NCBI GenBank assembly: GCA_020747065.1
Contig: JAGMVK010000003.1
Coordinates: 3,286,001-3,350,000, forward strand
DNA: 64,000 bases
DNA from: Cadophora sp. MPI-SDFR-AT-0126
Lineage: Eukaryota; Ascomycota; Leotiomycetes; Helotiales; Ploettnerulaceae
Reading direction: 5' to 3'
Part shown: piece by piece, positions 18,319 to 51,172 of the stretch
How positions within the stretch are numbered: position 1 is the first letter of the stretch
How the letters are laid out: every line of letters starts with the position of its first letter
Program-made: the position numbers and the translations under genes
The notes under the pieces: model-generated
What the model was told of the DNA's origin: nothing
The model's input: only the letters and a program-made list of their open reading frames with translations
The model's database searches: none

Positions 18319-20625
18319 TCAGGCAAGGCTCCGGAAGTCTTCCATTGCGGTCTCAAATATTTCCTTCATTCTCAAAACATATGTCCGGACGGTAGCATCG
18401 TTATCGAATGCATCTCGAACAACCTTTTTCTCTGCCCGACTCGAATTCTCATCAAGTCCAGCTTCATTCATTCTTCTGTCGAGCTCCTCTTCACACCATT
18501 GCTTCATAGCCTTGAACTGAGCTGAATCAGTATACTCGTTCGGGAAATTTGCTCTGAGACGACAACGATTTCGAAGAGTTGCAGCCATGGTTATAATTGC
18601 AGAAAGCTGTCTAGACAGCGCAATCTTACGAGGGTCTGACTGCACTGGATTGCGATAGATGAGGTTGTATATGGAGCGATCTCTAGGGCTGGTCATGATT
18701 CCGAGAACGAACAGAGCATTATCTGCTGCGGAGTCTGGCTTTGCCTGAGCTGAATTCACAATTTGCCAATTAGGCGGTTCATGAGTGCTGTACCACCGAC
18801 CATATGAGTCCTTGCATTGCTTTGACCGCTCCCACCACAGCTGTCTGGCCCGGATCCCAGCTTGGACTAATGGTTGTTCGATCTCAATTTGGTCCTCTAG
18901 CTCGGAAATCTTTTCAGCATTGGTATCGATCGCTGCTGCTTGAAGTTGCATCTTCATTCTGGCCGAAGCAAGCTCCTGTCTGGTGGAATCATGTGAGAGT
19001 TTCTCCTTCTTTAGGATGTCTTTGAGAGCGCGCAATTTAGACTCAATTTCTGTGAGCTTTGTCTGGCAGCTCTGTTCACCTCCACCTCCCAGCTTCTCTG
19101 ATAAGAAAGTTTTGAGACCAGTCAGCTCCCCCGAAACCAGCTGGGCATTCTCTTCTTGGATGCTATTCAGAACGTCTTGAATGTTCTTCAGGTAGCCCTT
19201 TGTTCCATTCTGCAAGTCCTTGAAAGTTGCAAGGAGCTTGACTATCTCTAGCTTGTCAGACTTGTCTTGTTCCATGCGCAAAACCTGGGTTTGTGCGAAA
19301 TCAGCGAGTTTCTTAATTTCGACCAATTGGGCGGTGAGGATCTCATTGTCTTTCACAACAGCTTCCTTCTCATTTCTGAGCTCCAAGGCTTCTTGTTCAA
19401 ATGAACTGTGAGCCTCGACAGTGACCTGCTGTTCGGACTGAAGCACGGAGACTTGGGCTCTGAGGGAAGTATTTTCCTCAAACAAGTGAGAAATCACTGC
19501 GACTTCGATGACACGAGCCTCCTCCAGTGCTAGAACTCTTGCCTGAAGATATGCTGTTTCTGCGGGATCGGGTTGAAATTGGATTCCGTCTCTGATCATA
19601 TATAATTCGTCCAGCACTTTGTCTGTCTCTGCGGACTCGAGATTTTCCGTGTTGCCTTGCTTCTGCACTACTGCCTCCTGTGTAGTAGATTCAAGCTTTC
19701 TGAGTGCTTCTTCTAGCTGACGATGAGTATTTCCGAACTCTTCGGTCAAGCTTGCATGCTCTTCCTTGACATTAGAAAGCTGGACTGATCTCGATAAGCT
19801 GGCTTCTTCTGCTTCCGTCAACTTCTTTTCAAGATATTTTATACGCTCCAGGTGGTGCTCATTGTTCGTTGCGATATGAAAAGAGCTTTGGAGCAGATAG
19901 CCTTTGAATTCAATGACAGTCTGGAGCTTGGAGGCGGCTGCCGAAAGCTTTTCTGAGTGTTCCTTCCATTCTTTGACTGCTGTGGCATTGGCTGTTTTCA
20001 ACTCGGCTTGGACTCTGTGGATCTCTTGTGCAAGTGCTGCTTTCTCCCTGGTGTAGGTTGCTTCATTCGATTCCAATTGTGCTTGGAGGGCGGCAATCTT
20101 GTCTTCTTGTTTGTGTGCTTCTTGAATATGGGCTGTTGTGTATGCATCGATCTGGCTTTCAAGTGTAGCAACCTCGTCTGAGAGAATTACTTTCTGTTCA
20201 GCAGACTTCTCTGCAGCCTCTTTCATATCTTTCTGAAGCTGGAGAATCGCTTCCTCAAGCTCATCTGTCAGTTTGTCATGGGATGCCTTCGAGTCAATAA
20301 GAGCAGTTCGAAGTTGCTCAATTTCCTCTGACTGGGCCACTTGTTCCTTACTTTTGATTGAATTGAGGTCGTTGAGGTTGCTTTCGAGTCGGACGACGCG
20401 TTCTCGAGAAAGTCGCAAGCTGTATTCGGCATTCCTAAGATCGTTTGCAGCAGTCTTCAGCTTGCCAGCGGTCACCTCTAGGGGCTCGTATGAAGTTATG
20501 AAGCTGTCAACACTCGAGACTGAGCTCGTTCTCTCTCGCGTAGCGCTAGTTCCGTTGTCGAGGATGAACTCAGAGACGCTAGACGTTGTACTCGCATTGA
20601 AAGTTGAAGTGTCAATTCCGGTCAT
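18319..20625 (-). CDS. Coiled-coil family protein E (768 aa), unknown function
   Basis: Single exon, unlike most of its relatives. A Ser/Thr-rich N-terminus (about 50 residues) leads into an almost continuous coiled coil from about 50 to 590, rich in Glu, Lys, Gln and Leu with heptad spacing. The C-terminal about 175 residues are the family module: it opens with EQPLVQAGIRARQLWW, where the h-R-x-R part of the signature is kept but the Gly is shifted. The GN-x-A-A-H core is not recognisable here. An NLIYRNP stretch sits where relatives have YGVSP, and the end is a helix (VRTYVLRMKEIFETAMEDF) similar to the other members. No signal peptide or membrane segment. Probably an elongated oligomeric protein; no role can be assigned. 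Confidence 0.82.
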   Translation of the reverse strand: MTGIDTSTFNASTTSSVSEFILDNGTSATRERTSSVSSVDSFITSYEPLEVTAGKLKTAANDLRNAEYSLRLSRERVVRLESNLNDLNSIKSKEQVAQSEEIEQLRTALIDSKASHDKLTDELEEAILQLQKDMKEAAEKSAEQKVILSDEVATLESQIDAYTTAHIQEAHKQEDKIAALQAQLESNEATYTREKAALAQEIHRVQAELKTANATAVKEWKEHSEKLSAAASKLQTVIEFKGYLLQSSFHIATNNEHHLERIKYLEKKLTEAEEASLSRSVQLSNVKEEHASLTEEFGNTHRQLEEALRKLESTTQEAVVQKQGNTENLESAETDKVLDELYMIRDGIQFQPDPAETAYLQARVLALEEARVIEVAVISHLFEENTSLRAQVSVLQSEQQVTVEAHSSFEQEALELRNEKEAVVKDNEILTAQLVEIKKLADFAQTQVLRMEQDKSDKLEIVKLLATFKDLQNGTKGYLKNIQDVLNSIQEENAQLVSGELTGLKTFLSEKLGGGGEQSCQTKLTEIESKLRALKDILKKEKLSHDSTRQELASARMKMQLQAAAIDTNAEKISELEDQIEIEQPLVQAGIRARQLWWERSKQCKDSYGRWYSTHEPPNWQIVNSAQAKPDSAADNALFVLGIMTSPRDRSIYNLIYRNPVQSDPRKIALSRQLSAIITMAATLRNRCRLRANFPNEYTDSAQFKAMKQWCEEELDRRMNEAGLDENSSRAEKKVVRDAFDNDATVRTYVLRMKEIFETAMEDFRSLA

Positions 20626-22284
20626 GTTGGGCTTAGGTGAAGTGTTCTGATGTTGTTAGACGTCATCGCAACTGAGAGTCTCCGCGTGATCATACCGCGG
20701 TGGACTGCCAAAAGCCTTCCTTGGGTTCTAGTTCAATGTTATGTAGAGTAGACCCGCCTTGGTCGTTGGAAGATGAGGTTACAGAAGGGGATAGAGAAGC
20801 CTTACTTCCGACTCTCGGCGACTTTGACTCGATGTTAGTGTGGATTGAAGAAGGGATCATTGCGACCTTACCATCGAGTTGAAATTCCTGCGGCGGACCG
20901 ATGGCTGTTTCCGAGGCGTCTTGATGCTTTGAGGCTGAATAAAATCACTACCGACTGCTGTTGGAATTGTCGCGTCTTCCATCATCTCCGAGCTGATGGC
21001 TGCTGCGATCGGGTCAGAGGAGGTTAACAATAACCAGCTCAACGACGCTCGCGTTCCAAGGAGATGGCTCTCAAGGTTGTAAAATATCAAAGCCAACCAA
21101 TTGAGAAAGTACTGGAATAGAGCGTAAAAGATCTGAACGCGATTTCGTTTAGGAGCATCAGTGAAGCACTTACCTAGCGCGAGCCTAAGATGACGCTAGC
21201 CCTCGGTTAAGTTGAACATCGATATTGACACTGTTTCTGGGCATTTGGCTGAGTTTATAATGCTTTGAAAACTTGAGCTCATGTCCCCGAAGATACTCAC
21301 TGTACCGTGTTGTCATGCACCATGTTTCAGATCTGCTTAACGAGCGTCTGTGAACTTGAGAAGTGCTGGATATCTGAGTCATCTTCTCGATTCTTGCAAC
21401 TTTACAAACAGCTCAACGTTATGCCATTGAGGCTTCAGGACACTGGTGCAATCCTCCAAGATCCATCTTTTTGATATTACTGCGTTCGAAGTGGAGGTGC
21501 TTTGCGACAATGACGGAGACTGAAATCGCTGTTCAGGACATTCGTTTGTACGATGCATTTTGTCTACTTCGTGTTTTGTATGCAGAAAAATCATCTTTAT
21601 GGAACTCTTACTTTCAAATCTTTGGAGTTAGGAGCTCAATATTTCCTCGAAGATCTTCCAACCAATGTACTGGGAATCCAGCAGGTGGGAGAGGATCGGT
21701 GACTTCTATAGAGTAGTCCGGAAACATCACAAGAAAGGTATGATAAGAGTCTGTCTGAGATATGAGACAAAATGGATCTCTTTTCAACATCACGATCCGC
21801 TGAAATAAATATTTATCACCTAGCTACTGCAATTAATAGTGGAAGATATTTTGGCTTGACTGATTTTGATGACTGAATAGACGGTAAAGGAACATAAGAT
21901 TGATCCAGGAAGTGGAGAAACAGACTCCAATCCAAAGGTATATCAACTCTTTGCCTCCAAAAGACCGTCCTCTATTATTCTGCGAAACATAAAGAAAGTC
22001 CCAAAGCTCAAATGGCCCAATCTCAAGTTCACCTCGCAAATGAACAATGTTCGATAAGTCAGAACGCTGCCCCATGGTTAGCAAAAAGTTTTGGCTTAAG
22101 AAACGATACACATACTGAAATGGGAGACCAATCTAAAGCAGTGATTCAAGATCAGAATCTTCTGTAACTTCTCTCCTCGAGAGGCAACAAGAGTTTCATC
22201 GTCAAGCCCGGCGTATATTAATTCCCTTCATTCCCAGGTTCTCAATCCATCAACGGGACTGTTAACTCTCTTAAGATAAAGATC
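20626..22284. other. Intergenic region
   Basis: 1.66 kb upstream of gene E and downstream of gene H. No open frame has a convincing start, length or composition. Nothing recognised. Confidence 0.45.
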
Positions 22285-23689
22285 TCATGAGCTAGAGCCT
22301 GGCTTGGTTTCAGACTTGAGTTCCGATAGAGCGTTGTTGTAAATTTCCCGCAATGAGATTCGGAATTGCTCAACCTCAGGACTAGCGTCGCAGAGCTTGG
22401 CCAGTGCTGCAACAGAAACCTTGCTGCCATCCGCCTTGAATGAGTTTCTAGACTTCCAGAACTCGAACTTGTTGAGCGTTTCGATCCACTCTCGATTCTT
22501 TGCCTTGTCTTTCAGATAAGAGAGCTCTGTTCCAAGAAAGAGGTTGACGCCGGCTGCTTTCAGGGTTCTGATTTCGATTTCCTTGCGGCTTGTGATTTTG
22601 TCTGTTGGAGAGCATCCAAATCGGAACTGGAACTCGATGTGATCTTTTTCTTCCTTGAAGAACCCGTGATGGAACAAGACCTGGACCAATCTCAAGCCTG
22701 GAGCATGAACTCTATCATTGCGAGGACTTGTAATTTGATGATTCTGACGACCTCTTGGGCCAGGGAGGATCTTCAAACCGCCATCAGAGTATCGCTCTCG
22801 ACCATATTCCGTCCATCCAGCGACAACGTCAGCACAGAACTCAGCGCACTCCTCGAGATCACAGTTGTATATATGAAGACCAGTGTTCTCTTGACGAAGC
22901 TCAGACATCTCCTTACGAAGATCGGAAATCTCCCGACGTAACTTGTTCGACTCCTCTTGACTTGCCTTTAGGTCTTTCACGAGCTGTGCATTTGCCTTCT
23001 CGATTTCTGCATTCTCCTTAATGAGCTTATTGGCAAGGTCGGCAGCGACCAGGGTTGTAGACTGTCGAGGCTCTGCTGCAGTCGTCATGGAGTGCATGGC
23101 ATTAGAGACATCATCATGGTCGTGCTCGAGGTGACTGCCCTTTCGAATGTTAATCAGCTTGCTGGCCTTGGTCTGTGGCAATGTTAGATTCAAGATACCG
23201 AATTCATAACTCGGTCAGATCCCTACCAAGATCGAAGCTAGGAGGTCATTCATCTTCTCAGTGAACTCCAATTTGACTCTTGTAGTTCCTTCGTCCCGGC
23301 GAGATGCTGATCCTACCATGAAAAGATCGACGACATTCTTTTGGGCCTCGTTGATGGTGTTGATTGCAACTCCACGGAGGTTGCCATCATCGTATCCGCA
23401 GATTCCTGATTCGCTCAATGCTTTCAATAAAATCTGGCACAAAACTAAGTTATGGCCTGCTTACAGTATTTGAGTGAGAACTGACCTTGTTCGTTTCCTT
23501 GTAAGTTGCGATGAATTGGGCCGCAGATCTTTCTGATGCGCCGATGACTTCCTTGAGCTCATTTTCCTCGGTGGTTGCTAGCTCCAGCAACTTCTGAACG
23601 TCCTGGTGGAGCTGGATTCCAAGGGCTTGTGTGTCTCTATTGCGAGACTGATGCTCACCAGAAGGAACGATCACAGTGCCAACGGTCAT
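22285..23689 (-). CDS. Coiled-coil family protein H (432 aa), divergent member
   Basis: Exons on the minus strand are 23689-23486, 23433-23227 and 23172-22285, all phase 0. The N-terminal about 140 residues are helical but not a simple coiled coil (GICGYDDGNLRGVAINTINEA). A short coiled coil follows at about 180-235 (NKLRREISDLRKEMSELRQ). The C-terminal module is reduced: RNDRVHAPGLRLVQVLF occupies the GN-x-A-A-H...L-F position with the same H-to-F spacing of 12 as three relatives, and FRFGCSPTDKI matches the YGVSP block. The end, FRISLREIYNNALSEL, parallels the last helix of gene E. The R-x-R signature is not evident. Divergently arranged with gene G across 821 bp. Membership is inference from these weak blocks. 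Confidence 0.72.
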
Positions 23690-24510
23690 GGTGATGTTGT
23701 TGTTGTGTGGCTATCGGTTGAGAGGCAGGGGAATGATTACAAGACGACGAGAAGCGCCTCCGCTTTAAGAACTTTGTGCACCAGCTTATGAATCTAGGAC
23801 TAGCCCATGTAAGACTACTGGGGGTAACTGGGCCCGGTCAAAGCTTACATTCACCACTAGATTCATTTCGACCACAAAGATTGACTTCCAGTCAGTGTTT
23901 TCCCGGAAAACTCACCTTCAACGTCTTCTCCTACTCACTGTTTGAGATCTAAGTTTTATGTGTACTAGTATCGATGTCATCAAATCGGTTGAGTACATCA
24001 ACTACAAGACTCTACAACCGACTTTGAGTTGTAACAGTGACACCCTCGGAATTGGAATGGTGGTCAGGATTGCGAATCGGTGATTTTGGCCTATATTTAG
24101 CACCACAAAGCGGGACTCACATGATGGCTAGAATGACTTAAAATGAAAATGACAAATTGATGAGGTTGTAGAGAAAATTCGCGATGGAAGCTTCGAAATT
24201 TTGCGAGTGATTGAGGACGGTCCTTAAAAGTATGTCCTAAGCGAGGCGCTGGTTCTTTATTTACCAGGACTGCACCGAGTCTCAGACTCTCGTTTATTTC
24301 TTCCCGATCGCAACCTCTCAAGCTAAGCAGTGCTCACACTGTTTCTTTCGCCTTCGTCGCCCCCTTCCCAAGCCTGTATTTAGATTTACTTGCTTACCTG
24401 ATACACTGCTATATCGATCTGCTGTCCTAAAAACTTGGTCAGTATCACTCTCTGCGGTGAATCACGTCTGCTGACCTACTTTGAGAACCGGTCAGTAAGA
24501 TTTGCTCAAA
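23690..24510. promoter_or_regulatory. Divergent promoter region of coiled-coil genes H and G
   Basis: 821 bp between the start codons of two divergent family members. No defined site was recognised. Confidence 0.4.
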
Positions 24511-26038
24511 ATGAACCAGCTGGGAGGATCCAAGATTAAGGTTACTACGTCCGAAAAGAAAGACAATACAGTGGACAATGATCAGCCCGGAACTCCTTCT
24601 TCTACTTACCCGCCATTCGTTCGACCACATCCCATTGCCAAGAAAAGCAAGAAAGACGTCGTAATCGCAACACTCACAAATACAAACGATGCCGACCTCC
24701 CTCCCCCAACTAAGAAGACGAAGGTCGACAAGCCAGAGCTCCAAGCTAGAAACGTTAAGACCGTCAGCCCCTACTTGGTCGAGATCGAAAGATTGAAGGG
24801 ACAACATATTGCCGAGCTTAAAAAGTTGAAGGAAGAGTATAGAGCCGAAGTTGAGAAGCTCAAGGATCGAGACCAAGAACTCAAGTATAGCAAGCAATTT
24901 GGGCAAGTGAACGAGGTATATCAAGCTGAGATCGACAATTTGAAGAAAGAAAATGAAGGGCTGAAGCACACCATCGAAACTCTAAAGTCAGAGATCAGAG
25001 TTCAAGAGCACTTGGTCCAGGTTGGGGCAGCCGTACGGGGTCGTTGGTTCGAGTTTGCAAAGAGCAGTGCCGGGATTGGCCAACCTGTCACAGCAATTGT
25101 TGAGGCAGGAGAAAGAGCAATCATCCGCGCCAACATTCGTGCTGACTTGGCCATGCTGCAACTGGGCTATGCTTCTCTTCCTTCCGGTAAGTTGGCCGCA
25201 TAGAAATAAAGTCGTTCCTCGCCCCAGTCGCTCCGAAGTCTAATATGCTGCGACAAAATGGCTGTTTCAATGGTAAATTGCTAACATCGCTAAAATAGTC
25301 CAAGCTGCGCAAGCCGCCACTGGACACTTCGATGCCGACAACATGTACAAGGATGGCTATTTCAAGGAACTATATACTATGAGCTTCAGTGAATTTGCCG
25401 AGCATCTCAACGAGAACTTCTGCTCCTATCCGCTGAAGAAGCTGGAGATATGCGAGATGTCCGGAACAATGACAAGCCTCGCGGGTTACGCACCTTCTCA
25501 TAAATATGATGACAAGAGTCTCTTGTAAGTTCCAGGATCGAATAATTGCCTTGACTTTAAGCATCTGCAAGTAGATCGTTCTGTTGGGAAATGCATTCTG
25601 TCTTTTTGGGTCTTTGAGTTCAAAGTACTGACATTCTCTTTCTTTTTCAGGAACGAATTTCAGGCCTTGATGATCAGTGCGAACGAGGAGTGGGCTAAGC
25701 ACATCTGCCACCTCTGGCCTGATCACCAACGACGTCTCAATACTGCAAACAACTGGCCACCATTGGAAATGATTGTCCGAGACATGAGAAGCATCGTCGA
25801 AGAGATTGCTGATGGCGTTCATGTCAATACCCCCGCAACTCCCAAGTCATCCGCAGCCAAGAAGAAGAACCCAACAGACTCGCCTTTCTTCGACAGCATG
25901 AGCAGCAGCGTTACGCCCAAGGTCAGTGGCTTGATTTCTACGGGACCAGCTGCGTCGGCTTCAGTTTCTTGGAACTCAGCTGCTTCAAACAAATCCATGT
26001 CAGGCGGAGCTAAAAACGCCGCGCTCAAGTCCACTTGA
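24511..26038 (+). CDS. Coiled-coil family protein G (429 aa)
   Basis: Exons 24511-25186, 25299-25524 and 25651-26038. The start is the ATG of MNQLGGSKIK. The N-terminus is basic, Ser/Thr/Pro rich and probably disordered (to about 80). A coiled coil runs from about 85 to 165. The module then opens with QEHLVQVGAAVRGRWFEFAK, a clear G-x-x-h-R-x-R match. The core reads RANIRADLAMLQLGY, with Ala-Asn in place of Gly-Asn and no His, so a catalytic role for that His cannot be general. KELYTMSFSEF sits at the YGVSP position. The C-terminal about 60 residues are Ser/Ala/Lys rich and low complexity (after VHVNTPATPK). No known function. Confidence 0.8.
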
Positions 26039-26885
26039 AAGTCGGTTATCTATTGGGAGACTGCTAACATGATTTTGCTTGCTGCAGAGTTGATTTGAAT
26101 TGGGTTCGTTCAGAAAGTCCAGGTCCATTATTTGACATTATGACATACGATGGCTATGCAAATACTTGCGATGCCTTGAGTATGGAGGATTGGGTTAAGC
26201 AAGCTGATGGAAGACTTGAAGCCCCCTGCCTGCATTGCTGCTTATTGGCGTTGAGAGAGCCTGAAATCTTAGAATAGTGATGACATCTGATTTCGGGCGC
26301 ATTGCATACATAAGTTGACTTCGATGCTCTCATGATTTCCAAATTTTATGCTAGAATGTGTCGGCCCCGTCAACCAATCACGAAATTTGGCAGTGAATGG
26401 ACATCCCAGCCTCTCACATGCAGAAATTGGGCACAGCATCGGAATGAAAGGTCAGTACAATGTATGTCTAACGAGAGAAACTTCCTCTCCTTTCTAATAC
26501 GCTGTATGACAGGAAAAACTACAACTTTCTATGGCAACCGTCTAGTCCTATGTGCCGCTCAGAAACTACTCCTGAATGCATAGATGGTTTCGTCCTGGAA
26601 AACATAAATCAGGGAGGGGAGGCTGTCGTTCATTATTGACGACATGGCGAGCAGTAAGCCTCGAAGGAACGGGCAGATGTGCTAGATCAAACCACCGAGC
26701 GGCAGGAGGACGTCCCAAGAGCTGGCACCGATAATACACCCGCCCATAGCCCCACCGCTTTGCTTCCCAAAGGATATCTCCATTGGAATGTGATCCCTCA
26801 AGACGTCTGGAACTTCAAGTGAGCCCCACCAACGAAGCAATACGGCGAGTCTCTGAAAGGTAACTCCTCCAGTTTGTTTTCGATT
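26039..26885. other. Intergenic region
   Basis: About 850 bp between the convergent genes G and the Faf1-like factor. Short frames only; nothing recognised. Confidence 0.45.
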
Positions 26886-27799: not shown

Positions 27800-27966
27800 C
27801 TTGTCCAGCCCTGGTGTTGAAGGTTTTGACTTGCGAATTGTTGCCAGGAAATAGATCCAGGTGTCGCAGAACTAATAATTATTGATCCGATGTTTAACCG
27901 GCTGGACTTTTACCCCTCCACCGCTTTAGGAATTCCGTTTTCGACCCAACATCAACGTCTTCAATC

Positions 27967-28860: not shown

Positions 28861-28931
28861 AGCTTTGCAATTTACCTATCAATGACAAGATTCGTTCTCC
28901 ATGACTAGTACGACGCGAGGGCAACCATCTA

Positions 28932-30107
28932 GTGGTCATCATGGGCCTTCCAGTCGGCCACCATGTTCGGAGTCAATTGGGACTTTCGTGTTCCTTGCAT
29001 TCTTTAACATCGACGTCAGAAGAAGTCAATTCAACTGCGATATCCAGGAGGCAGAAACCAAATAATTTGACCGTATCCATGTCCATTTACGATATCTCAA
29101 ATCGAAAATGGCTGCGAAATCGTCAAGATTGGAGACAGAAGGTTGCAAGTGGCAGCCCTGAAGTTTGTGAACTGCCAAAGAGTTCCAATACAGATTATGA
29201 CAACAAAGTGCAACATCAAAAGCCGCTGTCATTGAAGCAGTTCACATGCTGGGAGCTGGCCTGGCACCTCGCAATTTCGGAAGCTCGAATGGGCCATATC
29301 GAGGTGCAAGTTCGAAATGCTCGGATGTACATTGGAAAGAAAGATGGACGGATATCTCGCCCAAAGAAGCGTCTCAAGCAAGAGTCGAGCGTTGGGTATG
29401 GGGTCTTTGGCGACAATATCACAAGAGCTAGCGATTCTCTCCAGGAAGAGCTTGAGAAATTGGTCAGACAAATGATGGTTCTCATGAAGTCCAATGCCGA
29501 ACTTACCAAATGCAATGCGGAGCTCACAAAATCGAATGCAGAGCTTAGAGAATGCTTGAAGAGATCTGCGTTGGAGAAGAATGTCGTTGTGCAGCAGATA
29601 GTGAGAGAAAGTCTCTCCAATATGGCAGATCGCACCAATCCACTCTACGTTGTCGGAATTGCGATTAGGAAGCGCTACCTAGAGAACTCCACATCTTTCT
29701 CCAGGAACAAAGAGACGGTGCTTGCAGGCAATGAAGCTGCACACAATGGGGATGCGCTCTCTGATGCAATATTGTACCACCCACATGAAGCCCATCGCCG
29801 AAAAGATGAGATAACTTACTCAAATGTCTATGGAGTCTCTCCTCGTACAATTTGGGTCAATCGTCACTGCAAGCCATTCGTGCAACTGGTTACTTGGTAC
29901 GGAACTGTCAAGCGATGGCACCCCCACAACTTTTCTTGCACACAATTCGCGAGGGCATGGCCTGCGGACTTCTTTGAAAAGTATTTAGAAGCAGTACCTC
30001 AGGTTGTCCAGGCAGACTTTGCGGATGGAAAGAAGGACGATCTCATCAAGATTCTCGAGGCAAAATATTCCATTGAAGTGAAGGAAAATAGAAGCAAATA
30101 CCGTTGA
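28932..30107 (+). CDS. Coiled-coil family protein D (342-391 aa)
   Basis: The frame is open from the ATG at 28932 (391 aa), but the first 49 residues look like untranslated sequence. The ATG at 29079 (MSIYDISNRKW, 342 aa) is a plausible true start. A short coiled coil includes the near-perfect repeats NAELTKCNAELTKSNAELRE. The family module follows: NPLYVVGIAIRKRYLE (full P-hh-x-h-G-x-x-h-R-x-R signature), LAGNEAAHNGDALSDAILY, and SNVYGVSPRTIW. It is one of the four copies with the complete GN-x-A-A-H or A-S-H core. The stop lies after a basic, helical tail. It starts 72 bp (or 218 bp) after HIS6 on the same strand. Function unknown. Confidence 0.8.
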   Translation: MVIMGLPVGHHVRSQLGLSCSLHSLTSTSEEVNSTAISRRQKPNNLTVSMSIYDISNRKWLRNRQDWRQKVASGSPEVCELPKSSNTDYDNKVQHQKPLSLKQFTCWELAWHLAISEARMGHIEVQVRNARMYIGKKDGRISRPKKRLKQESSVGYGVFGDNITRASDSLQEELEKLVRQMMVLMKSNAELTKCNAELTKSNAELRECLKRSALEKNVVVQQIVRESLSNMADRTNPLYVVGIAIRKRYLENSTSFSRNKETVLAGNEAAHNGDALSDAILYHPHEAHRRKDEITYSNVYGVSPRTIWVNRHCKPFVQLVTWYGTVKRWHPHNFSCTQFARAWPADFFEKYLEAVPQVVQADFADGKKDDLIKILEAKYSIEVKENRSKYR

Positions 30108-32847: not shown

Positions 32848-35122
32848 ATGTCGTCTTCAACCCACTCCACCGCCAATGGCCATTCAAAACCTGATACCTC
32901 CGTCTCTCGCCCAGTCACACCTACTGAATCAACTTCTATCTCTCCAAAAGTCTATACACCATCAAAAAACCCTCCAATTTCAAAGTCGCCCAAGGAATAC
33001 TTCTGCGAACAGGACATGGTTGAGGGACCATTAAGCAACGTTCTCGTGATTACACGTGGCTTCCGTGAGAACACTTACTATGAAGATCATTGCTCCCAAG
33101 ATCCAGAGAGAGATGAGGAGATGTACACTGAGAAGCTTGAGTAAGTACATTTCTCTGCTGTCCGTCCACAAATTCCAGAAACTGACGGCACCAGGCTCAT
33201 CAAGAAGCAAGTCCAGATCGAGAACATGGCTCGTGAGATTGAGCGCTTGACATTCAAAGAGGCTGAGTTTAAGAGCGTTCTCGATCCCTCCATAGCTAAT
33301 ATTGACATCCTTGAAAGACGATTCAATGAGCTGGCTGCTGCCTACCAGTCCAAGATGGCTGCCATTGGCGAGATCAAAGGTATACCAGATATACTTATCA
33401 TCACAAAGGATGTGTCGGCTGCTGCAATTCTCGAAACTCGTAAGACCCAGGCAAAGCTTACCAAGCTGGAGCTGGAGACAATGGAGAGCGAAATTGAGAT
33501 GCTTGAGGCACAAGTCCTGGTCGAGGCCGAAAAAGAATCCAACCATACCAATGTTTCCGACTTTGAAGCCACCCGGGACGAGCTCGCTGCATTGACTGCT
33601 GATATCGTTGCTCTCAAAACTGGGTACCAGAAGTCTCACCTGGCATGGGTCTCAAGATTCTCAACTGAAGAGAGCAGTCTGCAAACCAAGACCTCCAAGG
33701 ACGGTGGCAATGATACGCATACCAATGATGCCCTCACCAAGTTGGAAGAAGTATCTGCCGAAAACAAACTTTTGAAGGAACAAATCCAGGCCATGCTTGA
33801 CAAGCCAACCGCTCCATCTGACGACATTATTGCAGGCTTGAAACATACCATTGCAGCTGGCACAGCCCAGAACCAGGCCCAGACCTATGAGATCGAGTCT
33901 CTGAAGGCTATCATTTTAGCTGGCCAGGAACAAAACCAAGCCCAGGCTAACGAGCTCCACTCTTTACACTTACGAAACCAGGTACAAGCTAACGAGATCC
34001 AATCTTTCAAGGCTCAGAATGAAATGGACTTGCATATGAGCTTCAAAGTCAAAGACCTTGAAGATAAGGTTATGAGCCTGGAGAGCAAGCTTGAGATCAT
34101 GAAGCCTCTTGTAAGTTCACGCACTTGTTAATTTCCTGGAGACTCGTGTAACACCACTGACCCATTCAAGTACCGTGTTGGTCGTCAGGTCCGTTATCGA
34201 AATAATTATAGCATTCTTCGCAAGAAGCTCGACGGACAGAATGCCGATTGCAACTTGGACATGTATGAAGAAGGCTATCATGCTAGATTTGGCGGTCATG
34301 CTATTGCTGACTCCATGATGTATCATAGCCATGGCGGTGAGAAAACCTTTTTCCTGTTCCAACACATCCTTTGTCTAACGACACTTAGTTTTCGATGAGA
34401 TGGATCCTATGGGACTTTTTGAGAACAACTTTGAGATTCTTCACTACGGCATTACTGCTGAGATGGTTTGGGACCATCGTCATGATTTCACCATGCTCGC
34501 AGAAATCCTCGACATGGCTTCCAACATGAAGGCATACGGACCAAAGAAGAACACCACAATCAAGAGTGTCATTGATGGTGCCATTTATGTTGGTGGCGTT
34601 GATGTTGAGGGTACTAAGTGGGATACTGAGGAGTATGATGCCAATAACAAATTCGCACTGGTAAGTAATAGGCAGCCGATTATTTCCTCCTTTCAAATTA
34701 TAATTGAAGACTCTCCAGAGACATGCCTATCTCTTCCAAGACTTTTCTAGATGTAGAAATTGCTAATTCTCCGTTAACCTTCAGTTTGATTTCGGACATG
34801 CTGAGTTCAAGAAGCTCTTCATTAAGGTCATTTCGCGCGTCTTGCCCTACTATAAGACATTGGCAATCGCATCCGATGAGCAATTCAGACAGCACCAAGA
34901 ACTCGTTGATGCTTTCAATGCGATGTATACCATCTCCTCTGAGGTTGTCAAGAAGAATTACATTGCTCGACGCAAGGGAATTGAGGACACCTGGGGTGAG
35001 TCAAGACTCCACGCTCTATTGGCTTGCGAATACTGCTAATGATTGTAGATCAACCATGGGAGAATGCTTGGGAGGAGTGGGACGATTTGGTCCATGAGGC
35101 CATGATTCGCCAGATGTGCTGA
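32848..35122 (+). CDS. Coiled-coil family protein F (643 aa)
   Basis: Exons 32848-33140, 33195-34110, 34171-34336, 34389-34660, 34785-34995 and 35049-35122. A Ser/Thr/Pro-rich N-terminus (to about 50) precedes a coiled coil at about 95-400, which holds repeated Asn-Gln-x-Gln units (NQAQTYEIES, NQAQANELHS, NQVQANEIQS). The module starts exactly at an exon boundary with YRVGRQVRYRNNY, after MKP in the previous exon, so the P-L-Y-x-x-G-x-x-h-R-x-R signature is rebuilt by splicing. FGGHAIADSMMY is the core, lacking the GN but keeping D-x-x-x-Y, and LHYGITAEMVW is the YGVSP block. The end is acidic and Trp rich (DQPWENAWEEWDDL). The most intron-rich copy. Confidence 0.82.
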
Positions 35123-35929: not shown

Positions 35930-37240
35930 ATGACAAAGATGGATAAGATCGATCTAGACGCTGAGCATGAGAAGTGTACAGCTTTGCTGGCACTGATCAA
36001 TGACGCTCGAGCCAAGGAGAAAGTTCACAAGAATGGAGAGCATTCCCTCTTGACAGCTCGCAATGATCTTTCCGCCCTTAGAATTCAACAAAAGGACTCC
36101 GATATTGAGCTGGCCAAGCTTCGTACGACCCACAACTCCGAGCTGAGCAAGTATGGCACGATGAAGACAGAGTGGCAGAAGAAGAAAGCACAAATGGAAA
36201 GCATTGTTTCGTGGGATCTGGATGACACCGATTCTGATGATGGACAAGAGAATTCATCAGAAGGACGCAGAGAGCTGGTGCAAGAATATCTCAATCTGTT
36301 GCTACAAAAGAACACCAGCAAGAAGCTCGCCAAAAAGATCAAGCAGAAGGAAATCGACATCGACCGCATTTCCCAAGACATCTCTGATAAGGACTCTTTA
36401 ATATCCACCTTAGAGGGAAATACTGGTGCGTTTGCCTCGGCACTTGAGAAGCTAAAGGCCAGTCTTCGAATCGATGAGCTGTCCCTCGCCCAAGAGAATA
36501 TCAAGTCACAAGCCACCGAAATTGCTGCTCTGAAGAAACAGAGCGACCTAAATTTGCATCAGATTCAGCAGCTCAATGAGACGGTAGAAAATCAAAAATC
36601 AGACTACCAGAAACAACGAGAGCTCAACAACACACTCACCAAAGTCCGATCACTTCCAGAATTGGAGGAAGATAAGAGCAAAATTACCTCAGAGAGTTTG
36701 CTGGAAGCTTACAAAGAAGGTCGCATGTCTAGACATCTCGAAATGGCTGGCCCATACGAAGCTGGCTGTGCCATACGAGCACGAAAGCTAGTCTGGTTTG
36801 GTTCGACTACGGACGAACCTATCAAGGTTCTAGGAAACAAGGCTTCTCATTATGGCATGGCTCTTGCAGATGCAACACTGTATCAAAAATGTTGCGAAGC
36901 TCCCTATAGCCGTACCAACACTTCCGACTACATCAAGCTCTATGGAGTGAGCCCTGGCTTTGTCTGGAAGCATCAGTCAATTCTAAAGCTGCTGGAAATC
37001 TTAGACTGGCGCGGGGCCATGAAGGACTTCTGCATGCATTCTTATGGTCGTTACTATGATTCCACACCATTCCACTCACTCTGGTCCAAATTGATTGCGT
37101 CCGTCAAGAAAGACGGCGTCACTACAGAAGAAATTGCAAGTCTCTTCGAAGAACCAAATGCAATCAAGTGGTACAACGAGTTGAAGGTCTTGTTTGAGGA
37201 AGGGCTCAAAAAGCACAATGAATATTTGGAGAGGCGGTAA
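35930..37240 (+). CDS. Coiled-coil family protein C (436 aa)
   Basis: One open exon from MTKMDKIDLD. The coiled coil covers about residues 5-250, broken by an acidic patch (DLDDTDSDDGQENSS, about 100-113). The module follows: AGPYEAGCAIRARKLVWFG (G-x-x-h-R-x-R), VLGNKASHYGMALADATLY (core) and IKLYGVSPGFVWK, then a helical tail (WYNELKVLFEEGLKKH) like that of genes E and H. The TAA lies inside GGTAAGT, and a branch-like TGCTAAC and an AAAAG acceptor follow at about 37.28-37.30 kb, so a last tiny exon ending VAIDC is possible. Function unknown. Confidence 0.8.
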   Translation: MTKMDKIDLDAEHEKCTALLALINDARAKEKVHKNGEHSLLTARNDLSALRIQQKDSDIELAKLRTTHNSELSKYGTMKTEWQKKKAQMESIVSWDLDDTDSDDGQENSSEGRRELVQEYLNLLLQKNTSKKLAKKIKQKEIDIDRISQDISDKDSLISTLEGNTGAFASALEKLKASLRIDELSLAQENIKSQATEIAALKKQSDLNLHQIQQLNETVENQKSDYQKQRELNNTLTKVRSLPELEEDKSKITSESLLEAYKEGRMSRHLEMAGPYEAGCAIRARKLVWFGSTTDEPIKVLGNKASHYGMALADATLYQKCCEAPYSRTNTSDYIKLYGVSPGFVWKHQSILKLLEILDWRGAMKDFCMHSYGRYYDSTPFHSLWSKLIASVKKDGVTTEEIASLFEEPNAIKWYNELKVLFEEGLKKHNEYLERR

Positions 37241-41841: not shown

Positions 41842-42212
41842 GGAATTTTCTAGGCTTCTTTGGATTCTCGTTATTTCGCGAATTTCATTTACTTCTGTTT
41901 GATACCTCAGGTGTTCAGGGAGGAGTTAATCTGGGTTTTTCGCTGTAATATTGTTTTTGCAGCAAAGCTGCTCCCTGGAGGGCAATTTGATTCTGCTCAC
42001 GACTGCGGACTCTCTCCTACTAGTCGGACTCGCGATATCGTATTGGATCTTGATGCTAGGTTTTATGATCAAATTTCCAAATTTCCAAATTATAAACATT
42101 ACACATTGTTGCAAGAGACCTCGTCCCAGGTTTGGCCCACAATCTGCCCTTTCCATATCCTTCTACTTATATGCATCGAAATCATTTGTTTCTCTGACAA
42201 ATATTGTGTTGA
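41842..42212. other. Intergenic region between convergent genes
   Basis: 371 bp between the stops of the membrane protein and lipase genes; only 3' flanking sequence expected. Nothing recognised. Confidence 0.5.
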
Positions 42213-43310: not shown

Positions 43311-45302
43311 GTTGAAGAAGAAACGAATGAACGAGTGACGATTATCAGAAACGAGAGACTGGAGATCCCAGCTGGGCTGCAGATATCACACCATAGAGTT
43401 GGGTCGTATGTTCGAGTTATGTACGGATCAAACGACATTCTTTCAGGTCTAGGGGCGCGAGCAACGCTCAATCGCGGAGCCTATACCACGTCGCACCGGG
43501 CCGGAAACTTTCCCATCCTGGTAACATCGATGTCGTCCGAAGTTTAAGCTTAGTTCAAATCTGTCATTCTTATGGTTGTTTTCTGCGATCAGATCTCTGG
43601 CGGGGTCAAGTACTGTATCCAACGCAGGTGGATCGAGTGGAGTCGAACTTCGCGACCAGGAGTGACGAGATTTGTGGTTCGGCTCCACATCACTCGCCAT
43701 ATCCAGACACCTTGGATGTTCTGTTCCTGCGATAGGAAATTAAAGTGAAACAAAGGCATCGGATTGATCGAATTGAGTAACTCCCAACGGTACCTGCAGG
43801 GAACATTCAAGTTTTATTCTTCGTTGGGTTAGAAGACAATAGTACCCCCACACTTTCAAACTATCAATGTATGCGCTGTCGGTCTTTCGATGTTGATATC
43901 TTGACACTGTAGAATCGTTTGAAACTACTTTATATCGTTACTCTAGGCCCTGAGAGCAACAATACTCCTCAAGTAGAAATGTACCGCAAAACGACAGCAG
44001 CCTCAACGACTGTTTCTACGCCTGAAACTCGCTTATCAGGGCCTCAGGTCTGTCGTGGACGCCATCTGATCAATGCATATCGGTCCCATCGAAAGTTTCT
44101 ACCGATCGCTGGCTGAAAAAACATGTGCTTCGGCTAAGCTCATGATGTTGAAAGATCGATCTATGTAAGCTGTACCAGGAAGTTCGATCGCCGTGATTTC
44201 GGAATTCGGATGAATGACTCGAGATTCTTGTGGACTGAGCTTTCTAGAACCATCATCGACATTTCCCAAGATCTCGAACCATGAAAAGCGCTGCTCAACC
44301 TGCAGCTTGGAGTGGATTCATGGATCTGTGACAGAATATCCCTCGTAACGGTCCGCCAGATCTGTCCCTGCAATCCATCAATGTCTTCAGGGATTATACC
44401 CGTTCAGATTGAGAATCAGATACTGAGGCTTCTAAGTTCCTGCATTTACCGTCTGAGGCGTCGTTGGCGATAGGGCGCGGGAGCTCTTCACAGTCCGCGC
44501 CAGCCAGGGAAGCTTACTTGATGTTTTACAATACAGAAATTAGACAGTGATAAAGCTAAAAATCTTAGGAAAAAATTGATGTGACCATCTAAGTGATCTG
44601 TATAACCTTTGATTCGATGTTGGGTTGACAAGAGATTCCTATTCTCGTTCCCGGGCATACATCGGGCTTGTTTACCTGCTCATTTTGTGGATATCAGGCC
44701 CAAGCTCTCCCCCACGCCTGATAAAAGAGCCCCCTAGATCATAATGCCATTATTGGCGAGGAGTCAAAGCACGGTCCCGGTGGAAAAGGACTGAATGTGG
44801 GAAGGAAGGTCTCGAAAAATATCTCAAGAGACTCCATTTCTGCACACTAGTACCATTTACACCCGAGCTAAGGCTTCTCTATGCTGATTTCCTGCCTTGT
44901 AGATACATATGATTCTCCTTTCCAGGGCCTGCTCCAAAAGTTTTTCAAGCCGTGATTCTTGCGGGTGCAACTTGATGCGGGCAGTAAATAATACTGGGAT
45001 TCTTGGGCCTTTCAATGAACACTTGACCCGCTTTTGTGCATACCAGCCAGGGAAGGCAAAGATCAAACCAGCCCGGAGAAGGTCTTATGCTCAGGAAGTA
45101 GATAAAATGGGCCATGTGGGTCTGCAACTTCTTCATAAGAAGTCGAGTCTGGCTCCATGAGTTATGAAAGTTCGACGCGAACCTCGATGCTTTCGAAACT
45201 CGACATTCACGACTGGTGAGGAGGGTGGTCCAGATATAAGGACTTTGTGGATACCACTTGAAGGACACAAACTGAGGAAGGAAGTCATCGAAGCCAGCAG
45301 CG
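43311..45302. other. 2 kb intergenic region
   Basis: Between the starts of the divergent lipase and rhodopsin-like genes, so both promoters lie here. Only short open frames on either strand, and no recognisable motifs or repeats. Confidence 0.5.
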
Positions 45303-46535
45303 ATGGCAGTTGAGAATCGTGGGCTAGAGTTGGCGGCTGTCATCATATTCCTCATGGTGTTCTCGCTTGTCACTGTCGGCTTGAGGTGTTATACGATGGG
45401 ATTTGTACTCAAAAGATTCTTTGCCGAAGACTGGCTATCTGTCGTCACACTCGTAGGTTCCATTCAGATATCAATCGAAGGAACCCACTGATATTCTGCA
45501 AGGCAGTCTACATGTTCTACTCGATATCCGCGCTTATCTCAATTCGCTGGGGTCTTGGCCAACACGTTGCAGATGTACCGATAGACCAACACCCTTTTGC
45601 ACTATTCTGGAAGTATATTGGTCAATGCATCTACGTACTTATCTCCGTGCTCGTCAAGTATATTGCTGGCCTTCTTCTACTTCGGATTTGTTCGCGCCAA
45701 AAGTGGCAAAGAATCACCATCTGGACACTACTCGGAGTCGTCACCGTCTTCAACATGTTTTACATCTTTATTGTCATCTTTCAGTGTATGCCCGTTCAAT
45801 TCTACTGGTATCGCTACAGTCCAAACCCGCCTATTACTGGGAAATGCAATCACTCGAAGCTCGCCACCATTCCAACTTATGTCAGTCTATTCTTGAATGT
45901 CCTCTCTGACTGGATATTGGCATTATTACCTATCTCAGTCGTTTGGAACTCGAACATGGACAGAAATACAAAGATTTCTGTTGTTGCCGTCTTGGCCATC
46001 GGATCCATGTGAGTATCCCTCACTTTTGATTCCTTTACTCAAGCTAATTTATTGACTTAGAGCATCATTAGCAACAGTTGCCCGTATTCCTTACGCCAAG
46101 CAACTTCTATCGAATCCAGACTATCTATACAACTTTACCGACCTAGCGATCTGGAGCACTGTCGAGATTGGTCTCGCGCTGAGCGCATCATCCCTCGCAA
46201 CACTCAAACCTCTTTTCCGCAAACTCAACATTCTCGTCTCAACACGTAATGGCAGCCGACTGGGAATTGGGACAAGCGGGCTGGGCACAAGTGGTCGAGG
46301 AACAAAGGATGGAGGAGATTCGGCATGGCACTCACGCAAGAGATCGACGCCGTTTACACCTCGAAACTTCACAGAGATCAAAGATGAAGAGAACGAATTG
46401 GGTGTTCTTCAGAGATCAGCGGAGAAGAGCGTTTTGGATGCTTCTGCAGGCGATTCTCTCATTTCTGTTCCTCTCGCTTCACATCCACCCAGTCAACCTC
46501 CAAGGCATGACTTCAACAACTCCACATTTTCATAA
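45303..46535 (+). CDS. Fungal rhodopsin-like integral membrane protein (SAT4-type)
   Basis: Exons 45303-45452, 45503-46008 and 46061-46535 give 376 aa. Seven hydrophobic segments fit the fungal Rhodopsin domain family (also called SAT4-like): VIIFLMVFSLVTVGLRCY, FYSISALIS, YVLISVLVKYIAGLLLL, ITIWTLLGVVTVFNMFYIF, IPTYVSLFLNVLSDWILALLP, ISVVAVLAIGSMASLATV and a last helix around WSTVEIGLALSASS. Typical family marks are LRCYTM...F.EDW at the start, FQCMPV, GKC after the fourth segment, SDWILALLPI and ARIPYAK. The C-terminal about 80 residues are cytosolic and Ser/Arg rich. Despite the name, no retinal Lys is implied. The role of this large family is mostly unknown. Confidence 0.88.
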
Positions 46536-46803
46536 CTTTCATGTAGCTCGACTCGATTTGTTATACCTTCAATTACTTGTTTCATGAGTGCTGAGTGCTT
46601 GCTTTTGACCATCGGCTCATTAATGCGGCATTGTGAAATTAGTAACTGGGGAAGCTGTGGTCCGTTAAACACTAGGGACAATGCTAGACTCCTCGCCTAA
46701 TTTGTAGCGCCATTCATTCTAGCTTCAAGTTCACGACGTGTGACTCCAAACCTCATCTTTCAATCACAACAGTCCCAGCATCCCCGACAAGTCTTCAGGA
46801 AAT

Positions 46804-48884
46804 GTGACTTTGAGACTGAACCATCAACCTACCTCCCTTTGTGTCCAGAATCCTAGGGCCACCGATTCTTTCGATCGACGCAGTATTGCGATCACAACAA
46901 TGCCCAACCAAGAGGGGGAAACAGGCTCGATTGGGCAAAATCTACGTGACCTACACCCGAAGACTGATTCGGAGAAAGGAGCAGACGACGCCTCAGACGG
47001 GGGAAGCTTTCTCGACGACGGTACGGAGGACTTTCTGCCTTCAGAATGGATCGGAGGTGAGAAGAAGTCGAAATTGTCTGATTACAAGCCTCGAAAGCGT
47101 GGAGCTATGAAGGTCAAATCAGAGATGGCCAGCCAATCTGCAAAAATGCCAGCAATCGCAAAGAGACCAACTCCGAAGCAGGAACCCCAGCCGGCAGCAC
47201 CCAAGCTCTGCTCATTGGAAGCCAAAGTCTCCTCGCTCGTCATCACCAGTGACGACTCCTCCCTTGTGGAGTCTCCAGCAGTCAAATCTTCCATCTCATC
47301 TACTACGAGCACAATCGATTCCCTTCGAAGCACGGTCACAATTGGACGACTGCAAGTACCAGCTTCATTGGTTCGCCAACCACGATCAGCCGTCGAGCTC
47401 ATGCAAGAGCAGATCAAAAGCCTAAAGCGCGACGTCGAGAGAAAGGAGAAAGATGTCAAATATGCAAATCAGCAAGTCAAATGTGCAAATCAGCAAGTCA
47501 AAATTAACCAAATGGCAAGGTCCAAGGCTGAAGACCAGGTAAAAGAGATTCGGACACAATTGGAGGCGAAGATCGAGTCCCTCCAGAACGAGCTGGGAGA
47601 AGCAGTATCGATGATTGAGCTGAGAAATGAGCGCAATCATATTCAAGGACAGCTTCAAAAAGCAACGGCAGACCTCATGAAGTTGCGTGAGAAGCATGAT
47701 AAAGTGGTCAAACGATTCTCCGCTGCTGGCAAAAAGCTTATCACAGCAAATGGAGATCTCGCGATGGCAAATGTTGAGATAGAATGGTTGAAGACGAAGA
47801 AGAGTGAGCAACATCATACAATCGAAAATCTCAGTCGAGAGGCCACTAGCGCTCGCATCTCTCATCAACGATTACAAGAGGACCTACTACAAGAGCGGGC
47901 AGATGGGATCATATTGCAAAACAAGAACGATGATTTGAGCGCTCAGTTCTCTACGCTCTCTGAGCGACTGTTGGCGGTTACAGCATCCCCACGGATATCA
48001 ACAGAAACACAAAATGCCATACATAGATACCGCAGCCTCCAGGGAATGTATGATAAGCTCAAGAGAGACTACAACTTGGCTCTGCGGGACAACAAAAACA
48101 TCGAGGAGGATAGAGATTCACATGTGATTGAAAATATCCAGCTGCGAAGAGAAAGAGATAATTCCAAGAGCAAGGTGAAGAGATTGGAGAATGATAAAAA
48201 ACGACTTATATCCACGAATCGGCGATTAGAGGAGGAAAAGGAAGAGCTGGAAGAGGAACGTGAACTCTTGGATCCAATTATTCAAATTGGCGTGGATGTA
48301 CGTCTTCGAAACCTGGAATGGGCAAGAGAAACCGCTTTAGGCGTCCCTACAAGCGACATCGATAGAGCAATTATCCGCAAGGGAAACATTGCGGCGCACA
48401 GGGCCAACGCCACTGTCGATGCTGCCTTATTCGAGGCTGATTTGGTACCCGAAGAGTATGTTGAGGAGGCCAGTCATGTATTCCAGGATATATACGGAGT
48501 AACACCATCCAACATTGGCCATTGGGAACCTCAAGCTCTGAGACTCACCGACTGCCAAGCGACACTGCGAACCCACAAAGCCGTCAGAAAATCAGTCAAT
48601 TCAGCAGCTCTTCGAAAAGAGTATGACAAGCTCGAGGATATACTGATTGACGATTACAATTCTATGCTTGGGTACTTCGAGACTGATCCTAGTGTTGACC
48701 ACAGATTGTTGAGACTAGAAGAGGTTACGGAGGAGATTGTCGACATAGAGAGAGGTAAAGGTGGCCGTCGAAAGACATCACGTTTCATTGTAAGTGTTTC
48801 ATTGCCTGGCATACTTAATCGTTCTGACATACCTGCAAGGGAAATTCTGGTGCTACTTATGACTCCGACGATGATGATGATTGA
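46804..48884 (+). CDS. Coiled-coil family protein A (644-676 aa)
   Basis: Exons 46804 (or 46900)-48789 and 48840-48884. The ATG at 46900 (MPNQEGETGS) looks a better start than the one at 46804. A disordered N-terminus contains a basic stretch (KPRKRGAMKVKSE, possible nuclear signal) and Ser/Thr-rich sequence to about 190. The coiled coil from about 195 to 490 includes the repeat KYANQQVKCANQQVK. The module has the full signature LDPIIQIGVDVRLRNLEWAR, RKGNIAAHRANATVDAALF and DIYGVTPSNI, plus DCQATLRT. The end is a basic RGKGGRRK followed, after the intron, by an Asp-rich tail (TYDSDDDDD). Closest relative is gene B, 465 bp downstream on the same strand. Confidence 0.85.
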
Positions 48885-49349
48885 GGTCCTTATTTCCGAC
48901 GTGTATCAATTTTTTGTGGTAACGTTCGTTAGATGTTCCTTGGCAAATTTGTGAGAGTAGTATGATAAATTGGCGCATTAAAACGATATTTCAGATGGTA
49001 TGGGAATACTCTTCCAGACAATTTCTGCATCCGAGGGGAATGACAAAGTATTTCTCAGATAGCAATGCTTTGTCGGCTCTTTGCATCTCCAACGAGCCCG
49101 TATCAGAAATCCTCCAAGCAACTTAGGGATCGGCATGGAAAGACCAATACGATGCGATGTACAAAATGTTTTCCAACATCGATTTCCCGGGATGATAATC
49201 AAGCGGATAGTCCCAGTGACCGTTATTTCTATAACAGAAGGAAGAGGATTCGCATACACAGCGCGCAGTTTGTTGACAATACATATCCCTTGACAAGCTC
49301 GATGCAACATCAGAAGAGAGAAAATAATTTGATAAACACATTGTAGCTC
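48885..49349. other. Intergenic region between tandem coiled-coil genes A and B
   Basis: 465 bp with no gene. Must contain the terminator of A and promoter of B. Nothing distinctive seen. Confidence 0.45.
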
Positions 49350-51172
49350 GTGGAGTTCAAGCCAGTGACAACTTACCATCCAATCAGAATCAAGCTCGTG
49401 ATGCGGGTTCATTCCGCGATCGAACATGAAGAACCTTCCACCACCACATTACGCAGCGATGCTCGACCAGCTCTTCTGGATATGGCCACTTCGAGCACGA
49501 CCTCATTGCCTTCACTCCTCCGCGAATTTGCCGGTCTATCAATATCGTCCCGTAAGAGCAAAAGTAGGACCGAACCCATCAAAGAACCAGATTTTACTTC
49601 TGGTTTTGGCTCGTGGAAGTCCAGCCTTACCAAGAAACGACCAAAAGAATCTCACAGGCATCGAAGTAAAATCAGGAGTGAAGATGACGATATTCAAACT
49701 GTGAGGGAGCAGCGCGATCATGAGCGCAAGCGTCTCCGTCGGGCGTTGCGGGAGCTGGAAGAGCTACGACGGGACAGGGATGAGCTAGATGGGCAGCGGC
49801 ACAAGGCGACTACGGATTTGAAAAGGCTGAGGAAAGAAGACCAGAAGAAGAAGAAAAAACTTGAGGACTACAAACTAAGGTTTCAAGACCAAGAAAAGGC
49901 CTTGGAGCGTCTTCGCGCGAACATCCAGGCAACACGCAGGGAGGCGGCGGACAAGGATCAGAAAATCGAACAGCTGGGTAGAGACGAGGCCAACTCAAAA
50001 TCCAAAGCTCAGAGACTTCGTGACAAACTCAGACGAGAGCAGGACCAGGTTTCGCAATTACAAGATGCTCTATCTGATCTGAAAATACAACGGAATCCAG
50101 TCACAGAAAATCGCGATGCCGTCACGACCCTCAGAACTTTACGAAAGAGTCACGATGAGCTTGGCAGACAATTTGAAGCTTTCCGAGAAGATTTCGGGTC
50201 TCTCAGAATAGAGAACAACCAGCTCGAGAAAGATTGTACGCGGCTCAGGACAGAAAGAGATGATACAAAGCAGCGAATGATCCGAGTGGAAGCTCATAAT
50301 GCCATTCAGGCACAAGACATCAAAGATCTAACCAAGTCGAAGGTCGATCTTGAAAAGACTCGAGAACTGGTCCAGCCGATTCTGCAAATCGGTGTAGACA
50401 TACGGCTGCGAAATTTGGAGTCTGCAAGGGAGACTCTCCTCAATATTAAGCAAGACCAGAAAGACAGGGCAATCATACTCGCCGGCAATGTCGCTGCGCA
50501 CAGACCTAATGGATTAGTGGATGCAACACTATTCACAGCTGGATTAGTCCCAGAAGATTACCTTCCCGAAGCTACGCGAGCATTTACCAAGATGTATCAG
50601 GTCACTCCGGCGAATTATGGTTGCTGGAGCCCCATGGTACTCCGCATGATCGACTGCCAGGCGACGATAGCTACCGTTCAAATACAGCACCACTTCAAAA
50701 AATTTGATACCTCTGACTTGAGAGCAGAACACAAGCGATTACATAAGTTTCTCGTCTCTCGCCAGAAAAGACTTTCTCCAGACGATTTTGAAGCTGACGA
50801 GAAGGCCAAAAAGTTACTGGCAAAAATAGAGATTATCATGGAGGAGATCGTGGACTTGAGCAGGGGTAAGGGTAAAGGACGGAAGAAATTCCAGGCATTT
50901 GTAGGTATCCCAACGAGCTGTGTCTTGCTAAGGATCTAATGCATGTGCAGGATTACGAAGAGAGTGAAGACGAAAAGATCACATCCGAGCCCGGCGAGCA
51001 GGATATAAAAATTCAAGGGGAGAATGACGAGAATGGCAAAACTCAAGAGAGCTTTGAGACGTTTTCAGATGAAGAAGAAACCACGTCCGAAGAAGATAGT
51101 GATACTTCTGGGGAAAGCGAGTCTTCGGAGGAGGACGAAAGTTCGGAAGACGACTCCGATGAAAGCGGATAA
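49350..51172 (+). CDS. Coiled-coil family protein B (546-590 aa), tandem copy of A
   Basis: Exons 49350 (or 49482, MATSSTTSLPSLL)-50900 and 50951-51172. A Ser-rich start precedes a highly charged coiled coil (about 105-340). The module reads VQPILQIGVDIRLRNLESAR, LAGNVAAHRPNGLVDATLF, KMYQVTPANY and DCQATIAT, then MEEIVDLSRGKGKGRKK. It matches gene A along its full length, and the intron sits at the same place just after the basic RGKG block. Exon 2 is an extended acidic tail of 73 residues, almost all Glu, Asp and Ser (EEETTSEEDSD...), far longer than in A. A basic patch followed by an acidic tail suggests interaction with nucleic acid or histones, but that is only inference. Confidence 0.85.

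Follow-up and report, generated by a model that had tools for sequence, protein, structure and literature searches.

Lineage-specific orphan multigene families are common in fungi. The genes described here lie in a stretch of 64,000 nucleotides (the window; contig C23, positions 3,286,001-3,350,000) of Cadophora sp. MPI-SDFR-AT-0126 (Helotiales, Ploettnerulaceae), whose genome comprises 54 Mb in 38 contigs. From profile comparisons it is close to certain that seven genes of the window, A to G, constitute one family sharing a C-terminal module of ∼170 residues, and the family extends beyond the window to three further genes on contig C12 (C12a, C12b and C12c). Like the orphan families of fungi, these genes are unnamed, clustered and, as far as the searches reached, confined to a single taxonomic order. 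Unlike them, they have a confidently predicted shared domain and a polar motif that some copies retain and others have lost.

The proteins resemble coiled-coil scaffold proteins in having a long helical N-terminal part with heptad periodicity in most members, and differ from them in having a conserved C-terminal head without a Pfam match. The head itself recalls the HEPN RNases, as the module is predicted to be all-helical with an Asn and, four residues later, a His where a predicted helix gives way to a loop. The HEPN motif is Rx4-6H, the next residue being usually N, D or H, and terminates helix 3 (PMC3710099).

Searches of Pfam, NCBIfam, PADLOC, PDB sequences and Foldseek gave no convincing match to a known family. 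This supports, for A to G, the suggestion of a first-pass annotation of the window that the multigene family is apparently undescribed, its combination of sequence features matching no named domain known to that annotation. No description of the family was found among the papers listed in searches of the open-licence literature on HEPN in fungi, Helotiales, Rhynchosporium, Cadophora or Oculimacula. Since the domain could be placed in no known class, the domain family is counted as new; the novelty lies in the domain family, at the level of the domain, and the mechanism discussed below is what we infer.

The C-terminal module and its members

The first-pass annotation had reported eight open frames, A to H, with a related C-terminal module. 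All eight are present where it placed them, and the opening signatures that it quoted for A to G are readable in those frames. The genes, modules and motifs are as follows, in window coordinates except for the last line.

46900..48789, plus strand: gene A, first exon (annotated protein P0019, 644 amino acids; last exon ∼48840-48884)
48235..48771, plus strand: C-terminal module of A (predicted eight-helix head), by profile match
48382..48399, plus strand: GNIAAH motif of A, read in the sequence, at the end of predicted helix 2 (model helix 41-52)
49407..50939, plus strand: gene B, open frame, 3' end probably continuing past an intron
50340..50876, plus strand: C-terminal module of B, by profile search
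50484..50501, plus strand: GNVAAH motif of B, read in the sequence
35939..37240, plus strand: gene C (annotated protein P0001, 435 amino acids)
36704..37237, plus strand: C-terminal module of C, by profile search and full-length C model
36833..36850, plus strand: GNKASH motif of C, read in the sequence
28905..30107, plus strand: gene D, open frame, with possible upstream introns and a provisional start
29592..30101, plus strand: C-terminal module of D, 89.9 bits with D held out of the profile
29727..29744, plus strand: GNEAAH motif of D, read in the sequence
18319..20625, minus strand: gene E, open frame, 768 amino acids
18340..18912, minus strand: C-terminal module of E, 25.8 bits, held out; Asn48 retained, His52 lost
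33226..35122, plus strand: gene F, splice model, 535 amino acids, an open joined frame with predicted start and splice sites
33226-34110, 34171-34336, 34389-34660, 34785-34995, 35049-35122, plus strand: predicted exons of F
34075..34549, plus strand: detected part of the F module, spanning two introns, 28.0 bits, held out; Asn48 and His52 lost
24511..26038, plus strand: gene G, splice model, 429 amino acids, a predicted open joined frame
24511-25186, 25299-25524, 25651-26038, plus strand: predicted exons of G
24970..25167, plus strand: detected first part of the G module, 17.7 bits over profile positions 6-67 only, with G held out; Asn48 and His52 lost
22285..23193, minus strand: gene H, open frame; family membership not supported by score
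Contig C12:2792781-2817771: second cluster, C12a, C12c and C12b, from own-genome searches

The frame of A is identical to P0019 at 630 of the 644 residues, the remainder being encoded by the second exon, and the C-terminal 290 residues of C match P0001 at 100%. F and G are intron-split genes and were joined computationally before the held-out profile tests.

Pairwise comparison of the modules gave 48% identity for A and B and 32% for C and D. Matches were also obtained for A-C, A-D, B-C and B-D, and for the first part of G with A and E. The E module gave weak matches to A and B and none convincing to C and D. The expectation (E) values of these comparisons are small-scale, the database being six sequences.

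A broad profile of 32 modules combined those of A, B, C and D and of two C12 genes with 26 homologue rows, including the copies of A and C. When 3,538 six-frame peptides were searched with it, three modules outside the profile were detected, namely E at 4.9e-8, G at 1.2e-7 and that of a new C12 gene at 4.8e-9, and the unspliced exons of F were matched in the correct order with weak E-values of 0.031, 0.24 and 0.94. A second profile was limited to 26 modules of the A and C types, with D, E, F, G and all C12 genes held out, and was compared with 2,211 decoys (2,200 shuffles and 11 reversals), the best of which scored 7.8 bits. It found D at 89.9, F at 28.0, E at 25.8 and G at 17.7 bits, together with C12a at 53.4, C12b at 35.1 and C12c at 23.5 bits. 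The suggestion that one could deny any family here, the similarity being coiled-coil composition plus chance, might appeal to the whole-protein Pfam scans, which yield coiled-coil noise only, and to the failure of H, one of the eight genes. It is refuted for A to G by held-out members reaching 17.7-89.9 bits, the best decoy scoring 7.8, and hardly any credence can be given to it.

Narrower profiles found less. The C-only profile detected D (81.8 bits), A (35.0), B (28.3) and F (26.3); C12c (10.6) was barely over the best decoy of 8.0, and G (3.4) and C12b (4.6) were under it. With the A-only profile, D (18.7) and G (13.5) exceeded the best decoy of 7.6 bits and C (9.6) and C12c (8.5) barely did so; F, at 6.3 bits, fell under the decoys and E was not among the best 40 matches listed. 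Indeed E is among the matches listed for the combined A+C profile only, of the three profiles. The A+C profile recovers D, E, F and G, whereas the A-only and C-only profiles cross-detect only in part.

The claim of a module common to eight genes holds for A to G; for H it is not supported by score. In a profile-profile alignment, 138 aligned columns of H run in register with the module motifs. The score of 15.8 falls inside the range of shuffled H sequences (top 22.9; at least 10 of 100 shuffles higher). Among seven unrelated proteins of the window, one scored 16.5 in the same comparison. The 32-module profile gave H 2.6 bits, located in the coil, and H was not among the best 40 matches listed for any of the three profiles (A+C, A-only, C-only). 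H is an unproved candidate member.

A 93-residue frame just beyond E (17724-18002, minus strand) scored 10.6 bits with the A-only profile, where the best decoy reached 7.6. No module was seen in it; it is possibly a worn remnant, chance being more likely.

The predicted head and its comparison with HEPN

The module of A (48244-48777) was modelled with AlphaFold2 from 27 rows of A-type, C-type and other members. The model has a predicted local distance difference score (pLDDT) of 91.5 and a predicted template modelling score (pTM) of 0.81, and contains eight helices (2-32, 41-52, 56-64, 70-84, 88-93, 96-112, 118-140 and 149-171). The head is thus predicted to be an eight-helix fold. In a separate full-length model of C (pTM 0.39), made from C-type rows only, long N-terminal helices precede the module, whose helices are 253-289, 296-304, 311-318, 332-338, 342-347, 352-370, 380-390, 399-405 and 409-435. 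By sequence alignment the helix order of the two models matches, helix 118-140 of A being two shorter helices in C. Foldseek gave no significant match of the A model in the PDB or among viral models, which does not prove a new fold.

Conserved residues, numbered as in the A module, were examined in an alignment of 39 modules, namely the ten members of this genome and 29 homologues. P0001 and P0019, as copies of C and A, were left out, as were P0017 and P0033, which begin within the motif region, and P0034, which was read by eye. The common core proposed by the first-pass annotation, GNxAxH, is confined among the window genes to A-D; instead, Gly16, Arg20, Asp59 and Tyr84 are invariant in all ten members. 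Single homologues deviate from this framework, at Gly16 in P0026, at Arg20 in P0006 and at Tyr84 in P0015. Asn48 and His52, spaced as Asn-x3-His, are both present in five of the ten members (A, B, C, D and C12b). The pair is broken in the others: E keeps the Asn only, F, G, C12a and C12c have neither and none has the His alone. This co-occurrence in the ten members has a Fisher p of 0.048, a value that ignores shared descent. Both residues are kept in 30/30 homologues covering the place, these homologues having been found by motif-bearing queries and their pieces cut with the motif pattern.

These features were set against the HEPN motif. Helix 41-52 of the A model terminates at His52, before a loop. 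In contrast to HEPN, the motif Arg is found in 1/10 members (C12b) and in none of the 30 homologues, its position being Gly or Val in the other nine members and Gly in 30/30 homologues; the motif is in helix 2 of eight with a short helix next, and there is no significant profile or fold link. Because the motif Arg is absent from nine members and all 30 homologues, the family was not filed as HEPN.

The module might nevertheless be a very divergent HEPN-type RNase in which Asn-x3-His is a remnant of Rx4-6H and Arg20 or another basic residue substitutes for the Arg of the motif. GNxAxH closes predicted helix 2 much as the HEPN motif closes helix 3, and HEPN families that keep the H without the R are reported (PMC3710099). 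C12b alone carries an Arg for the motif Gly and reads KRNIAIH, and the motif RNKKNHY of the IRE1 KEN domain of this genome is close to GNKASHY of C. When the module was compared with this single KEN domain, profile to profile, the motifs fell in register but the E-value of 0.61 was not significant. No HEPN family was among the Pfam hits of six modules, nor among the NCBIfam or PADLOC hits, and the fold lists for the A model name no HEPN structure, although a missing match there does not exclude HEPN. A HEPN-type RNase is judged distinctly unlikely.

The KEN domain is the only match in the genome to the IRE1/RNase L family (PF06479) and lies at C23:3222988-3223371, ∼63 kb before the window. Its presence on the same contig as the cluster is probably coincidence.

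The probable stalk and the possible action of the head

The reading that we prefer, and hold only tentatively at somewhat less than even confidence, is that of a family restricted to Helotiales, as far as named species go, in which a helical head sits on a likely coiled-coil stalk and binds through an Arg-Asn-His-Asp site. Helix 1 is predicted to carry Gly16 and Arg20, helix 2 to end in GNxAxH and helix 3 to carry Asp59. Should helices 1 and 2 be packed antiparallel, which the short link between them hints at, Arg20, Asn48, His52 and Asp59 would lie close together. The head would likely bind a partner through this site or, less likely, cleave it. The stalk would pair chains, and heads would then operate as pairs or in larger assemblies. 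Copies that have both Asn48 and His52 would engage a ligand or partner; the broken-site copies E, F, G, C12a and C12c, in which the framework residues are kept, may serve as site-less partners in mixed assemblies.

Support for the stalk comes from heptad periodicity over the whole N-terminal part, which exceeds that of shuffles in six of the nine members tested (A, B, C, E, C12a and C12c) and also in H; the N-terminal part of C12b was too short for the test. On this test the first-pass description of the N-terminal parts as mostly coiled coil has support in five of the eight window genes (A, B, C, E and H) and none in D, F or G.

Several results weigh against this reading. The periodicity of D, F and G is not above shuffles, and in the 63 residues preceding the module only G and C12a (2/10 members) pass a 5% heptad test. 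Since the signal is missing in the former and mostly weak just before the module, a coiled-coil stalk is graded as likely only. The motif stretch has low confidence in the C model. A tree of the site losses has weak support and long branches: the broken-site members need four changes on it, against a mean of 3.6 for shuffled labels, and at least two are required by the branches that are well supported. Finally, Gly47 and Ala50, which adjoin Asn48 and His52, are highly conserved and fit helix packing equally well.

This last point favours a different explanation, that the module is a purely structural cap which ends the coiled coil and sets the pairing of chains, GNxAxH being a tight helix-packing motif, with the small Gly47 and Ala50 set against helix 1, and having no ligand or chemistry. 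The motif does lie in a predicted helix following a hairpin-like turn, and five members exist without an intact pair. However, those members retain Gly16, Arg20, Asp59 and Tyr84, so the framework seems not to need the Asn-His pair, and all 30 homologues covering the place have Asn and His together. Such a polar pair, retained in some members and broken in others against a constant framework, points to binding or catalysis more than to packing. Packing remains a serious rival, and a structural cap is quite possible, if on balance doubtful.

A bolder version of the proposed binding head can be formulated: a new catalytic or ligand-gated head of Leotiomycete fungi, with a HEPN-like Asn-x3-His site reached independently, in which active and pseudo-enzyme copies would stand side by side in coiled-coil-mounted mixed assemblies. 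This is considered unlikely.

The N-terminal part of A-type proteins (window 46900-47250 in A) has a common acidic-aromatic stretch around FLDDDTxDFLP. A basic YKPRKRG stretch in 6/10 aligned rows of the same part might be a nuclear signal. Simple nuclear-localisation patterns were scattered, with none in 4/11 proteins.

Range of the family and neighbouring genes

The genome of the strain was searched with single proteins as queries (C, A, D, E, C12a, C12b, C12c, H, P0027, P0028 and G). These searches recovered the C23 cluster and the second cluster, on C12 at 2.79-2.82 Mb, giving a count of at least ten members (seven in the window and three on C12). P0027 matched the known members plus one place at E 2.98 and P0028 the known members only. 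G matched A (E 0.144) and C12b (0.374) and then two unrelated places at ∼2.3. E, C12c and H, beyond themselves, gave matches at E > 1 only. Scattered matches with E > 0.8 were taken as chance.

Protein-database searches returned 34 proteins, nine of them with an organism name: this strain (two), Cadophora gregata, Cadophora strain DSE1049, Leptodontidium, Rhexocercosporidium, Rhynchosporium agropyri, R. graminicola and Oculimacula yallundae. The five named genera (Cadophora, Leptodontidium, Rhexocercosporidium, Rhynchosporium and Oculimacula) all belong to Helotiales. A profile search of the protein database gave 23 proteins, all judged on inspection to be of the C type, and revealed no further subfamily. 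As the prefilter requires shared five-letter words, the range within Helotiales marks the limit of the search.

The C-type homologue P0003 and the A-type homologue P0021 are recorded each on a single contig, in both cases 36,370 bases long. This suggests, without proof, that A and C are neighbours in another, related genome too.

In the window, a domain scan of the proteins showed the family genes to be interspersed with or flanked by ordinary genes:

27.9 kb of window: histidine-biosynthesis gene
42.2 kb of window: class 3 lipase gene
45.3 kb of window: fungal rhodopsin-domain gene
58.6-60.8 kb of window: NIPA-type transporter pieces
61.1 kb of window: WD40 protein gene

The clustering, the strong divergence and the loss of the site in some copies could be taken to indicate a system of self/non-self recognition or conflict, in which intact copies would act as effectors and broken ones as regulators. 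However, domain-library scans of the window proteins showed no known recognition or defence domain beside the family genes, and counterparts of both A and C occur in several genera, which is more like maintained paralogues. A recognition system is held to be very unlikely.

About half of the predicted genes of Rhynchosporium encode proteins of unknown function (PMC5118889). The present genes would add a further domain family, whose fold is predicted with confidence and has no convincing match in the libraries searched, to a group of fungi that includes root-inhabiting and grass-infecting species. Its adjacent copies with and without the Asn-His pair constitute a natural experiment on the shedding of an active or binding site by a family.

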